Shown here in pieces: positions 4,833-9,825 of a DNA stretch of 23,499 nucleotides (its first letter is position 1; the number at the start of each line of letters is the position of its first letter). This DNA is from a virus, in the IMG/VR virus record IMGVR_UViG_3300025110_000133, positions 1 to 23,499 of that record, one strand, 5' to 3'. The notes below the pieces were generated by a model. It ran no database searches. It saw only the letters and a program-made list of their open reading frames with translations, and was not told the origin of the DNA. The position numbers and the translations under genes were made by a program.

Positions 4833-5499
4833 AGTTATCCTTTGGATTTGGGGTTGCTGGAGTTCCTGACTCTTGTTGTGGTGCATCAACTGTGAATCCC
4901 CATCCCTCTGCTGTCTGAGCTTGACTGCCAAAGGGTATGAACTTCTTGATGTTTATAGCAGAAGGTGTAATTGCAAGACCTGAACCAACATCTTTGTGGT
5001 AAGGGAAGACATATAGAGCTACTTGTGCTGTGGTACATGGCCCTATCTTTATGTACTTCTTCTTCTGTGTATCGTTCAATGGTTCTTGCTGTCTGTTGTC
5101 AAACATTACTGGTGCAGTATTAGGTGTACCATTAGGCTTGTGTGTTTTTTTATTAGTGCGTATCACTAGATAGTTATCATCAGGAAAACCTTGTCTTTTG
5201 TTGCCATCTTTATCTAAGTATGGCCCCCAAGAATATGGGAGGTTATTCCATTTAATAAATTCTTGTAGCTCCTCATTTGTTTTATTAGGATAAGCAGCCT
5301 TAATTGCCGTCTTTAATTGAACAAGGCAATTATCTAGACCATTCCCTAATTTCTGTGATGCTTCACCATAAGGACAGACAATATCTGTCTTCCATTTATG
5401 AGGAGCAAACTTAGTATCTGCTTCAACCAACCATGAGAGGCTAAGCATTGAGTTCTCTGGTGTATTCAGTTGTGTTCCGTTGAGATCCAGTTCTTTCAT
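4822..5499 (-). CDS. T7 gp2.5-like single-stranded DNA-binding protein
   Basis: The 225-residue product is close to T7 gp2.5 (232) and lies in the expected slot between RNA polymerase and endonuclease I. It is a soluble beta-rich protein with conserved-looking blocks (FAPHKWKTDIVCPYGEA near residue 31; ITPSAINIKKFIPFG near the C-terminus). A Pro/Gln linker is followed by a short tail ending KDNFGF. T7 gp2.5 ends in an acidic tail with a terminal Phe that contacts the polymerase and helicase; the final Phe is kept here but acidity is low. The ATG overlaps the RNA polymerase stop (ATGA). Assignment rests on position, length and overall pattern more than on a strict motif. Confidence 0.8.
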   Translation of the reverse strand: MKELDLNGTQLNTPENSMLSLSWLVEADTKFAPHKWKTDIVCPYGEASQKLGNGLDNCLVQLKTAIKAAYPNKTNEELQEFIKWNNLPYSWGPYLDKDGNKRQGFPDDNYLVIRTNKKTHKPNGTPNTAPVMFDNRQQEPLNDTQKKKYIKIGPCTTAQVALYVFPYHKDVGSGLAITPSAINIKKFIPFGSQAQTAEGWGFTVDAPQQESGTPATPNPKDNFGF

Positions 5500-7868
5500 G
5501 TGATGAAATAAGTTGAGTTTCGTGTAAGTGTTGGATCTAATGAACCCAACTGGGGTTCAGTTGGTAGATCCTCCTTTTGTGTCGGGGTGAGTTGTGATTT
5601 CAGCCCGTCCTTTACCTTAGCAAGCCAATCTTCCTTATACATCTCAGCAAAGGATTCTCTTGCAGCATTTCTTAACGCACTCATCTCACTTGGAGTTGTT
5701 AAGAAACAGTCATGTATTCCTCCTATATTAATAACATTTTTCTTGGTAGCTTTGATGGTAGTAGCACACATATGAGCAGCATCAAATGAGTGCAGGATAT
5801 TAGCACTTAATCCATTCCCCATCTTAGTAGTATTCAGTGTGGGACAGTCATCTTGCACCCTAATGTCTAAGTGAATGTCCGACAAATACTTAAGTCTTAT
5901 CCTTGTATTCTTTGTACTATTATATTGCTGATGTGCTGTTAATCCTGATGGTGTAGTCCATGTAAGTGGTGTATCATTCTTACCTGCTCTTGTACCTATA
6001 GCTTTAAACCATACCATCGCCTGAACTGCTGGTTGTATCAAAGCACTCGCCTCTTTGTGTAATATCTTCGCCATGTAATGAATCGTTTGCATCGATCCAT
6101 CCTTTGTTAACCAACTTGTATTGCCATATAAATTCTTAGCTCTCTTAATTCCCCATTGATGAGCAAAGGTATAGAAGGATGCGTATGTTGCACTATAAGG
6201 AAGACACATCACAGGATTCTTAGCCAGTGTCCTATCTGTTTGAAGCATTAACCATTTTCTTGAGTGTTCATTGTTGTCTTGTCGTAGTTGTTCATTAACT
6301 CTCGTCATCACACTCGTATATATATCTTGTGGCTTATCTGTATTAATTAGATTCACTTGTTCACCCATACTTTTAGATCTAAGCAACGCTGAATAATGCT
6401 GTATCCCTGAGCAAGTGCAGTCCAGCATCACCGGCTGACGACATTTATATGTTGGTCCTTCCTTCTTCCACTCGTAATAGGTACGACAGAAAGATAAGAA
6501 AGACCATGGCTTATCTGCTCTCATCCAGAATTGAGAGTTAGTCCACGGGTCATTACCTGCTCCCATGATTAGTTGTTCATGTTCAAATACCCAATCGATC
6601 CTTGTTTGGAAGTCACTCTTAAGACCATATAAATTTGCACCATGTATGCGTAACCAATTCGCCTGTTCTTCTGTCTGTATATATGTGTAGTAACTGAACT
6701 CAAGCAGCGACCTGGCTACGTCATTACCTTGTGGATTTAGATACGGTGGTCGATAGTAAAGACGACCCCTCCAATCACAGCTAAGAGGATAGAAAATTTC
6801 AGGTGTGTCCCTGAATTTCCTTGCAGTATTAAGCAAGATTGCATTAGCCAACCTTGTGCTTTTAGTTTTCTCATTCCTTATATGTATGCTTCGTGCTGTC
6901 TTCTTCCATTTAATTATGTCGGGGTGATCCTCATCCAAATGCTTTGGATATGGAGGCACAGGCCATCCACTAATAGGAAGCAAGCAGCCAACAACTAGGT
7001 TCTGATCGTAAGCATGTAGTACCTGATCAAGCATCCATGTCTTAAGTCTCCAAGCAACAGCACTCTGTATATTTGCTGCCTCTATATAAGTCTCATCTCC
7101 CTTGCAATGACTAGCTATTAGATCGTTATTAGTTTTAAATAGTGGGTTGGGTATGCGATCATTATAGTACCCACCATAGCAAGACTTATCATATTTCTTA
7201 GGAGGGATAATCGTTGGTAGATAGTGAGGTGTTAGTACTTCTTGTCTGTGTTGTACGTCAGCTATCCATTTCAGACATTCTTCAGTTGGTTCAACAACCC
7301 TTCTCTTTTTACGTGGCTGATCACATCTAATTATCTTTAAGAACCCTGTCTCTTTAGCTGCAATCTCAACTAATAAATTACCGCAACACATCTTATCTTT
7401 ATTAGACCAGAGTTCAGTGCTATCCATCCTCTTTAAGTTCTCTATTTTATGTCGCTTCCTTTGTCTACTCTTGTTATATCTAGCCAATTCTTTTTTATTT
7501 AACTTGTTAAGCATCGCTTCAATCCATAACCTATCAGCTATTTCCATAGAGATTTGATGAAGAGATGGTGAACAAGTCAGTTGATCTACTATTGTTCTGA
7601 TTGTGGTAGCAGCCACGATCTGCGATGGAAGCAAAGTCAGAGGTCTAAGTCTTGCATAGGTGATACCCGCCTTGCCTGACTGGACCTCTTTTTGTATGCG
7701 TTCTATGTGGTCAACTATCTGATTAAAACCTACGCAAGAAAGAGTCTCTCCCCAATTAGAAAGAGACTCCATCTTCTTAGATTTAAAAGAGTTACTTACA
7801 AAGCGAGAAAAGTTTCTCCCATTTGTAAACATCTCCTCCTCTAGTTGTAGCTGTTCATTCAAGTTCAT
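5496..7868 (-). CDS. T7-like single-subunit DNA-dependent RNA polymerase
   Basis: The product is 790 residues from ATG 7868 (T7: 883). A TTG at 7874 would add two residues. The active site is intact. Asp483 in the VMLDCTCSGIQH block corresponds to T7 Asp537. Arg546, Lys550 and Tyr558 (DRTLAKNPVMCLPY) correspond to Arg627, Lys631 and Tyr639, with identical spacing. His719-Asp720 (GGIHDCF) correspond to His811-Asp812. The CDWRGRLYYRPPYLNPQGND block and NILHSFDAAHM are also conserved. Ser replaces the Gly after the motif B tyrosine. The enzyme would transcribe middle and late genes from phage promoters that I could not define. The gene overlaps the zinc-ribbon gene by 14 nt and SSB by 4 nt. Confidence 0.97.
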   Translation of the reverse strand: MNLNEQLQLEEEMFTNGRNFSRFVSNSFKSKKMESLSNWGETLSCVGFNQIVDHIERIQKEVQSGKAGITYARLRPLTLLPSQIVAATTIRTIVDQLTCSPSLHQISMEIADRLWIEAMLNKLNKKELARYNKSRQRKRHKIENLKRMDSTELWSNKDKMCCGNLLVEIAAKETGFLKIIRCDQPRKKRRVVEPTEECLKWIADVQHRQEVLTPHYLPTIIPPKKYDKSCYGGYYNDRIPNPLFKTNNDLIASHCKGDETYIEAANIQSAVAWRLKTWMLDQVLHAYDQNLVVGCLLPISGWPVPPYPKHLDEDHPDIIKWKKTARSIHIRNEKTKSTRLANAILLNTARKFRDTPEIFYPLSCDWRGRLYYRPPYLNPQGNDVARSLLEFSYYTYIQTEEQANWLRIHGANLYGLKSDFQTRIDWVFEHEQLIMGAGNDPWTNSQFWMRADKPWSFLSFCRTYYEWKKEGPTYKCRQPVMLDCTCSGIQHYSALLRSKSMGEQVNLINTDKPQDIYTSVMTRVNEQLRQDNNEHSRKWLMLQTDRTLAKNPVMCLPYSATYASFYTFAHQWGIKRAKNLYGNTSWLTKDGSMQTIHYMAKILHKEASALIQPAVQAMVWFKAIGTRAGKNDTPLTWTTPSGLTAHQQYNSTKNTRIRLKYLSDIHLDIRVQDDCPTLNTTKMGNGLSANILHSFDAAHMCATTIKATKKNVINIGGIHDCFLTTPSEMSALRNAARESFAEMYKEDWLAKVKDGLKSQLTPTQKEDLPTEPQLGSLDPTLTRNSTYFIT

Positions 7869-9121: not shown

Positions 9122-9158
9122 TGAGGGAGTGAGTCCCTCATCTAACCCCGAAGGGCTA
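9122..9158 (-). promoter_or_regulatory. Twin hairpins between early genes (UUCG hairpin plus GAGGGA hairpin)
   Basis: In the minus-strand transcript, a hairpin at 9158-9143 has a six-pair stem (TAGCCC/GGGTTA) closed by a C(UUCG)G tetraloop. One pair is G-U, which forms only in minus-strand RNA; the plus strand would have an A-C mismatch. Next comes a seven-pair hairpin at 9140-9122 (TGAGGGA, loop CTCAC, TCCCTCA). No U-run follows, so an intrinsic terminator is not clearly supported. An RNase processing or mRNA-stabilising role is possible. It sits between the 103-residue gene (stop at 9169) and the GTG at 9094. Confidence 0.65.
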
Positions 9159-9168
9159 GAGGAGAGAG

Positions 9169-9480
9169 TCAGACCGCTTGCAATTCGTCAGCTTTACCAG
9201 CGACACAACTGCAATGATCTCTGACAACTATCCAAACCATCTCATTAATGATTTGGTCGATAGTTCCATTATTCTTGCTCAAGTCTTCCAGAAGTGATTC
9301 CCCATAAATACCGTCAAGGTAAGCTTCAATTTCTACTTGGTGTTCATTGAAAAATTTCTTTGTCTCCCAGTAGTAAATAAAACCATTGACTCCCATTTCG
9401 CACCCATGTTGGGCAACGTCTCGGCACTCATCAATAGAATCAAATCTTTCTTCTAGTGCAAGAAATAAAGGTGAAAGCAT
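9169..9480 (-). CDS. Hypothetical early protein, 103 aa
   Basis: The start at ATG 9480 is preferred because GAGG lies 5 nt upstream. An in-frame start further upstream (9543) would run through the intergenic hairpins and give a low-complexity leader. The protein is acidic and helical: LFLALEERFDSIDECRDVAQHGCEMGVNGFIYYWET, then a helix with EHQVEIEAYLDGIYGESLLEDLSKN, then a C-terminal IINEMVWIVVRDHCSCVAGKADEL. No motif is recognised; five cysteines including CSC are present, but the spacing is not a standard zinc site. It is the second gene of the early block. Confidence 0.75.
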   Translation of the reverse strand: MLSPLFLALEERFDSIDECRDVAQHGCEMGVNGFIYYWETKKFFNEHQVEIEAYLDGIYGESLLEDLSKNNGTIDQIINEMVWIVVRDHCSCVAGKADELQAV

Positions 9481-9502
9481 AATGCCTCTTTGTGGTGGGT
9501 CG

Positions 9503-9518
9503 TCCCTCTTTTGAGGGA
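9503..9518 (-). promoter_or_regulatory. Six-pair hairpin TCCCTC-AAAA-GAGGGA
   Basis: A perfect inverted repeat with a four-base loop lies between the 71- and 103-residue genes. It directly follows the tRNA-like fold (9521-9568) in transcript order and precedes an ACCCACCAC word at 9500-9492. Its stem sequence is the same GAGGGA/TCCCTC pair as the hairpin at 9122-9140, with the arms in the opposite order. No T-run follows. It may be an RNA processing or stability element. Confidence 0.6.
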
Positions 9519-9520
9519 AT

Positions 9521-9568
9521 GACGAGGAATGGAGTTGAACCATTCCCTAAGCCTGGTTACTTATCGTC
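9521..9568 (-). ncRNA. tRNA-like three-way junction (possible TLS or attP relic)
   Basis: All 48 nt fold with a single unpaired junction base. The outer stem is GACGA/TCGTC (5 pairs). The first hairpin is TAAG/CTTA with an 8-nt loop. The second hairpin is GGAATGG/CCATTCC (7 pairs) with loop TTCAACT, which fits the tRNA T-loop consensus TTCRANY. The T-arm hairpin and outer stem abut without a gap, giving a 12-pair helix, the length of a tRNA acceptor plus T stem. There is no anticodon arm and no CCA; the next bases are ATTCC. The stop codon of the 71-residue gene (9559-9557) lies in the first loop. It may be a structured mRNA element or the tRNA 3' half carried by an attachment site. Confidence 0.45.
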
Positions 9569-9772
9569 TTTGTCCTGGTCCATCTTCATGGTTTCTTCCA
9601 GGTCGCATGCTGCATCCAATAACTCCATTAAGAACCCTTGGTGCATGTCGTTCATCTTGTCCCAGTCTTCCTCTGTCGTTACCTTCCTTAGTTCCTTGAG
9701 AGCATCAACTACTTTCTCGGCATCCTCTAAGGCGTAACCAACTTGACTAAGACCGTCCCTTACTGACTTCAT
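9557..9772 (-). CDS. First early protein, 71 aa, acidic helical
   Basis: The product is very acidic and wholly helical (EDAEKVVDALKELRKVTTEEDWDKMNDMHQ..., ending DLEETMKMDQDKDDK), with no membrane segment or known motif. An in-frame ATG at 9799 would give 80 residues. However, that ATG overlaps the -10 box of the promoter at 9798-9825, so a transcript from this promoter would not contain it. ATG 9772 is therefore chosen. Small acidic early proteins in T7-like phages often inhibit host enzymes or mimic DNA; that is only an analogy here. Confidence 0.7.
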   Translation of the reverse strand: MKSVRDGLSQVGYALEDAEKVVDALKELRKVTTEEDWDKMNDMHQGFLMELLDAACDLEETMKMDQDKDDK

Positions 9773-9780
9773 AATGAATT

Positions 9781-9789
9781 GTGGTGGGT
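9781..9789 (-). repeat. ACCCACCAC leader word (copy in first early leader)
   Basis: The nonamer ACCCACCAC (minus strand) occurs exactly four times: 9781-9789, 9492-9500, 1768-1776 and 10238-10246. Near-copies (T/A-CCCACC) lie at 8259-8266, 9110-9117 and 10120-10127. Five of the seven are 9-23 nt upstream of minus-strand start codons (9772, 9480, 9094, 8252, 1767), often where no Shine-Dalgarno is present. It is not complementary to the anti-Shine-Dalgarno sequence. It may be a leader or translation element, or a protein-binding site. Confidence 0.55.
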
Positions 9790-9797
9790 ACTCCTTC

Positions 9798-9825
9798 ATT
9801 ATATCAGATCTTAGTAGTTTTTCAA
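9798..9825 (-). promoter_or_regulatory. Sigma70-like early promoter
   Basis: On the minus strand, TTGAAA (9825-9820) and a perfect TATAAT (9803-9798) are separated by 16 bp. This is the best bacterial promoter match I see in the window, and it points into the early gene block. Transcription would start near 9791, giving a short leader containing ACCCACCAC before ATG 9772. Host RNA polymerase is the likely user, as for T7 early promoters. Confidence 0.65.

Follow-up and report, generated by a model that had tools for sequence, protein, structure and literature searches.

A compact tRNA-like fold lies between the first two early genes of a T7-like phage

Between the first two early genes of a T7-like phage, a short stretch of the minus strand appears able to pair into part of a tRNA, which raises the question of whether it acts as an RNA and what it might do at that position. 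The locus lies in a 23.5-kb virus contig, analysed over its whole length of 23,499 nt (the window). Its minus strand encodes a single-subunit RNA polymerase, a primase/helicase and an exonuclease, and its plus strand encodes a terminase. Among isolates, the Prochlorococcus phages P-SCSP1 come closest to it (RNA polymerase 55% identical). The minus strand is the sense strand of the early genes and carries the element RNA, for which folding bore out the coordinates and layout of the original prediction: an outer stem, a small hairpin and a T-arm with its T-loop, the T-arm stacking on the outer stem to give an acceptor/T-like helix of 12 bp. The features, with the evidence for each in brackets, are:

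9521..9568, minus strand: armless tRNA-like element, 48 nt (fold, covariance model, compensatory changes, elbow-like covariation)
9568-9564/9525-9521, minus strand: outer stem, 5 bp, GACGA/UCGUC (fold)
9563-9560/9551-9548, minus strand: small D-like hairpin, 4-bp stem UAAG/CUUA (fold)
9559-9552, minus strand: small-hairpin loop UAACCAGG (fold)
9546-9540/9532-9526, minus strand: T-arm, 7 bp, GGAAUGG/CCAUUCC (fold)
9539-9533, minus strand: T-loop UUCAACU (fold)
9557..9559, minus strand: UAA stop of the upstream early gene, within the small loop (ORF list, copies elsewhere)
9518..9520, minus strand: spacer AUU from the element to the second hairpin, the proposed cleavage point (conserved UU in copies)
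9503..9518, minus strand: second hairpin UCCCUC-AAAA-GAGGGA, whose first U is the last spacer base (fold, relatives)
9481..9502, minus strand: C/A-rich leader CCCACCACAAAGAGG with a Shine-Dalgarno-like AAAGAGG before the next start codon (sequence, same leader in relatives)
9557..9799, minus strand: ORF of the upstream early gene, no PHROGs match (ORF list, PHROGs)
9169..9480, minus strand: downstream early gene, 103 aa, whose homologues are hypothetical proteins of Synechococcus podoviruses

Read from 9568 to 9521, the element is GACGA-UAAG-UAACCAGG-CUUA-G-GGAAUGG-UUCAACU-CCAUUCC-UCGUC. As had been claimed, it contains the stop codon of the first early gene (TAA 9559-9557 of ORF 9799-9557). 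At 9799 the ORF probably begins too far upstream; by comparison with contig L005, the probable start of this gene is an internal ATG at 9772 (minus strand), preceded by the same CCCACCAC leader as other genes.

On the minus strand, the 48-mer folds with -15.2 kcal/mol (z -2.5, 4/200 shuffles), and on the plus strand it has a z of -1.65. For 93 nt comprising the element and the second hairpin, z was -2.9 (1/200 shuffles). Taken alone, the window's fold is only moderately above chance by energy. An alternative pairing of TCGT with a downstream ACGA was rejected, as it is broken in the nearest relative, L001 (ACGACC to ACTACC); a second alternative that we weighed in the window pairs AGGGAATG with CATTCCCT.

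Relatives carry the same fold with compensatory changes

The element of L001 is identical in sequence to that of the window. Contigs L005-L008, which were fetched via the downstream protein, have other sequences with the same fold in the same place, and some have extra copies after the next gene. A descriptor scan gave 44 matches in 1.09 Mb of fetched loci compared with 2 in a shuffled control, and 41 copies once three matches that look like chance were set aside, although many of these loci had been fetched with patterns requiring the T-loop and a CCCTC/GAGGG hairpin, so that the counts are not a measure of prevalence. One narrow variant pattern alone matches 40 IMG/VR contigs.

A covariance model (R1) was built from ten copies, with the window copy left out, using rows that have a consistent outer-stem register; the first alignments had mixed two registers. 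With E-values that are rough owing to a short calibration, R1 recovered the window copy (E 3e-4) and gave 37 matches at E <= 3e-4 in 98 loci, with none from 3e-4 to 0.1 (850 kb).

The original prediction held that the fold would be a chance one if relatives lacked compensatory changes. Such changes were clearly present. When 31 distinct copies were aligned with MAFFT, blind to structure, 95.3% of cells were paired and 13 of the 18 pairs had double-sided changes; the 107 double-changed cells compare with 35 in shuffles and a maximum of 34 in slid controls. When 45 distinct copies were aligned with the model, a procedure that leans to structure, double-sided compensation was observed in 16 of 17 pairs, with 174 double-changed cells compared with 54 in shuffles and a score reached by 0 of 500 shuffles. 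T-arm positions were nearly gap-free in both alignments. The T-stem has 8 G-U and 3 A-C cells, an excess that is a weak sign that the sense strand may be the functional one. Once relatives are compared, the fold stands far above chance and is well supported.

Loop covariation resembles the tRNA elbow

The elbow of tRNA includes a contact of base 18 with Psi55 and a G19-C56 pair, and RNase P, RNase Z and other factors recognise its surface (PMC4810234). The window element has a T-arm closed by G-C, with a 7-nt loop of the form UUCRANY (UUCAACU). In about half of the copies the T-loop is UUCRA.., and in the others it is the variant UGCRA... The last two bases of the small-hairpin loop are GG in 28 of 28 copies with a UUC T-loop and AG in 22 of 24 copies with UGC, two being unclear and none having GG. 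A stricter, automatic drawing placed GG with UUC in 23/29 and with UGC in 0/24 (Fisher p 8e-10, which is overstated because the copies are related); the six remaining UUC copies reflect shifts in how the hairpin was drawn. No search pattern had selected for the UGC copies in this 53-copy set. Furthermore, the loop switch occurs among closely similar elements (L021, L082 and L084 versus L005 and L006), which amounts to an independent double change. The association of base 18 with base 55, together with constant G19 and C56, matches G18-Psi55 and G19-C56, and from it we infer a D-loop/T-loop tertiary contact in the element.

The combined length of outer stem and T-stem could be measured in 45 copies and is 11-13 bp in 44 of them, compared with 12 bp in tRNA. 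A coaxial acceptor/T stack of about 12 bp with a T-loop, a trait of RNase P and RNase Z substrates, is thus present in the element. Neither an anticodon arm nor a four-way junction was found in the copies, which have only the small hairpin between the outer stem and the T-arm, and CCA at positions 74-76 occurs in 0 of 53. Through its stack, its T-loop consensus and the covariation of its loops, the element bears out the suggestion that it is a tRNA-mimicking RNA.

The element overlaps the upstream stop codon and is followed by a second structure

All copies are oriented in the sense of transcription. Of the 48 copies that have a recognisable upstream gene, 47 contain the stop codon of that gene in their 5' half, at a position that varies from -9 to -28 relative to the T-stem. 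A downstream gene starts after 51 of 53 copies, mostly about 40 nt on. Between early genes there can be tandem copies, up to four in L180.

The 3' flank, which had not been part of the original prediction, has two further features. In 47 of 53 distinct copies, the 3' strand has UU directly after its 13th base, and that base is A in 38 of the 53 (A, C or U preceding the UU). In a second contig set, fetched with a pattern that was silent on the 3' flank, the UU spacer was present in 32 of 32 copies printed. Beyond it, 83% of copies have a perfect second stem of at least 5 bp compared with 3% in shuffles, the former figure being partly biased by the fetching pattern. This second structure is usually UCCCUC-GAGGGA in the window's clade and, for example, UGACAC-GUGUCA or GCCUGAC-GUCGGGC in named phages. 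In the clade of L160, L164, L165, L172, L182, L184 and L189 it is an H-type pseudoknot whose second stem is compensated (GCGG/CCGC or GCAGG/CCUGC); the pseudoknot had no Rfam match in the five loci scanned (clade members and neighbours).

We rejected an intrinsic terminator, since the sequence beyond the second hairpin is C/A-rich and has no U run, as well as a stop-codon readthrough element, since the stop lies within the fold and not upstream of it.

The element is repeated in cyanophage genomes and is not confined to early genes

A whole-record covariance search at an E limit of 0.02 found the element in 11 of 20 named cyanophage (Autographiviridae) records: four copies each in S-SBP1 and MedDCM-OCT-S45-C4, three each in P-SSP7 (600, 1021 and 20630) and S-TIP37, two in P-SSP10, and one each in S-RIP2, S-CBP2, S-CBP3, S-CBP42, Syn5 and NATL1A-7. 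At the same limit, none was found in P-SCSP1c, S-CBP1, S-RIP1, S-B28, S-CBP4, P60, DSL-LC07, S-SRP01, S28-C3 or Pelagibacter phage HTVC011P. The covariance model also gave dozens of further copies in cyanophage contigs.

The original prediction concerned a single copy between early genes; the element is repeated and also precedes late genes. Copies precede the major capsid gene in S-SBP1, S45-C4, S-CBP3 and P-SSP7, and one precedes psbA in S45-C4, indicating that the element is confined neither to early genes nor to transcription by the host polymerase. Downstream of the element, the capsid leader has a conserved CCGTC-(TAGA/ATGA)-GACGGTGGGATAGACCACA in P-SSP7 (L152 ~2195-2250) and S-SBP1 (L135 ~5360-5410); in S-RIP2 (L138, reverse strand) this leader occurs without the element. 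Glutamine-II riboswitch matches lie between psbA and the capsid gene at L138 7218-7272 (S-RIP2) and L136 5767-5823 (MedDCM-OCT-S45-C4).

The element is apparently a new RNA family of tRNA-like kind

Searches against Rfam (4227 families), at gathering and at permissive thresholds, gave no match to the element. The same searches recovered the Glutamine-II riboswitch and a real tRNA (L182) in these loci, indicating that the search works. ARAGORN reported no tRNA in the window. Its tRNA-Trp and tRNA-Arg calls at L006 634-728 and L049 10195-10290 reuse the element's T-arm, and these genes are likely false. The family pattern had no match in bacterial or archaeal genome contigs. In the open-access papers searched, we found no description of tRNA-like elements in cyanopodoviruses. 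The element is apparently a new RNA family of tRNA-like kind, an earlier description being possible; what sets it apart is that it lacks an anticodon arm, recurs between cistrons and overlaps stop codons. It is present, several times per genome, in some of the best-studied marine phages (P-SSP7, Syn5 and S-TIP37), where it has apparently gone unnoticed, and tRNA finders may place false tRNA genes and attP sites at such elements.

A possible role in punctuating the phage mRNA

The comparative analysis shows a fold that is selected as RNA on the mRNA strand, the covariation of a D-loop/T-loop type of contact, the position of the element, and the 3' UU with its second structure. To these we add the proposal that the message is cut or protected at the element. 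In the reading that we favour, and to which we give slightly less than an even chance, a cis-acting armless-tRNA mimic punctuates the polycistronic phage mRNA through cutting or protection on its 3' side, in which host RNase Z may be involved. The element would mimic the tRNA elbow and the acceptor/T half, without an anticodon arm, and would mark the boundary of two cistrons. With the stop codon within the fold, full folding would wait for the terminating ribosome to leave. Host enzymes of tRNA maturation would read the 12-bp stack and the elbow. The likeliest of them is RNase Z, a 3' endonuclease, which would cut on the 3' side after position 73; alternatively, RNase E would cut in the exposed AUU. 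The upstream mRNA would then keep its stop codon and carry at its 3' end a compact tRNA-like cap that resists exonucleases, and a protective hairpin or pseudoknot would stand at the start of the downstream mRNA. The element would thereby play the part of the RNase III sites at which the T7 early mRNAs are separated.

Bacterial RNase Z normally acts after 5' maturation, and the long 5' extension on the element, namely the upstream mRNA, argues against RNase Z cutting. In favour of this enzyme, the copies lack CCA at 74-76, a property that they share with RNase Z substrates. RNase P, RNase Z and RNase E are all present in cyanobacteria (PMC10989914). Two further points speak against the favoured reading: P-SCSP1c, S-CBP1, S-RIP1 and S-B28 manage without the element, and the stop-codon overlap could instead reflect a translation-related role.

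Protection could also arise without any tRNA enzyme. The element and the second hairpin would then form a passive, two-sided nuclease barrier, with host RNase E cutting in the exposed AUU and the elbow selected for nothing beyond its compactness and resistance to unwinding. Between the two structures, only AUU is conserved as single-stranded sequence, P-SSP7 induces host RNase E in MED4 (PMC9692554), and the second structure can be either a hairpin or a pseudoknot, as for a simple block. However, a passive barrier leaves unexplained the full D/T elbow and the 12-bp stack, which are kept despite extensive sequence change, and we regard it as unlikely, though deserving of attention. On the 5' side, host RNase P might cut the element, as it does in phage C4/M3 RNAs and some polycistronic mRNAs. 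Such acceptor/T minihelices, phage M3/C4 RNAs and mRNAs are cut by RNase P (PMC11143913), and the stack length fits. A canonical 5' cut, however, would remove the upstream stop in nearly every copy and leave a non-stop upstream mRNA, and because of this a 3'-side event fits better; we consider an RNase P site decidedly improbable.

The other serious rival is a translational role, in which the element would sense the terminating ribosome or bind an elbow-recognising factor and so control reinitiation at the next gene. The near-universal stop overlap and the regular distance to the next start are consistent with this, but the stop lies at many places relative to the T-stem, so that the geometry is not fixed, and the capsid start is 120-145 nt away in P-SSP7, S-SBP1 and S-CBP3; the translational reading seems to us quite improbable. 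The original prediction had also raised an attP core derived from the 3' end of a host tRNA, given that the 3' half fits tRNA positions 49-73. This did not hold up, and we give it almost no credence: no identical copy of the 21-nt core, that is the 3' half, occurs in 84,980 bacterial and archaeal genomes, there are several divergent copies per phage genome with compensated helices, an integrase was found in 0 of 10 window proteins scanned, and the P-SSP7 copies lie away from its integrase gene (4896-5768).

If the element does direct processing, as in the 3'-side punctuation that we favour, this would help to explain the separate phage mRNAs and how they are kept while host RNase E rises, and the element would provide a natural minimal substrate on which to test what RNase P and RNase Z need.

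Comparison with known systems

The element shares with tRNA (RF00005) the T-loop consensus, the closing G-C and a 12-bp acceptor/T-like stack, as well as the pairing by covariation of GG in the small-hairpin loop with UUC in the T-loop. It differs in being about 46 nt long and lacking an anticodon arm, a variable loop and CCA; its outer stem is 5-6 bp and its T-stem 6-7 bp, with the junction shifted, and the Rfam tRNA model does not match it. Plant virus tRNA-like structures of the TYMV type are single and 3'-terminal and can be aminoacylated, whereas the element is internal, repeated and without CCA; both are cases of viral RNA rebuilding the tRNA elbow by a different topology (PMC4810234). 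The phage C4 antisense RNA (P1, P7) and M3 RNA are likewise phage tRNA imitators, which are processed by host RNase P (PMC11143913). However, C4 and M3 are single trans-acting or stable RNAs, whereas the cyanophage element is repeated, acts in cis under our proposal and overlaps stop codons, and no C4/M3-type family in Rfam matched it.

The RNase III sites between the early genes of T7 are long hairpins. In genome layout the element corresponds to them, as it too lies between the early cistrons of a phage of T7 type, but it is a three-way junction with helices of 4-7 bp and not a long, near-continuous duplex. A long hairpin does occur at the window's next gene boundary (9130-9171, minus strand), where UGACUCUCUCCUCUAGCCC-UUCG-GGGUUAGAUGAGGGACUCA has a z of -4.3. 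It differs from the tRNA-like element, has a compensated version in L004 and L008 (UCUGUCC/GGGACAGA), and looks like an RNase III-type site.

In mitochondria, tRNA folds between cistrons mark the cutting points of a polycistronic transcript. Real tRNAs are released there, whereas the cyanophage element is a mimic at which cleavage is proposed. A mitochondria-like punctuation in these phages, in which armless mimics would be cut by host RNase Z and possibly RNase P, leaving tRNA-like 3' caps and structured 5' ends, is a tentative idea that we think has a fair way to go before reaching even odds; with the stop codon lying within the mimic, the ribosome would gate the cutting.
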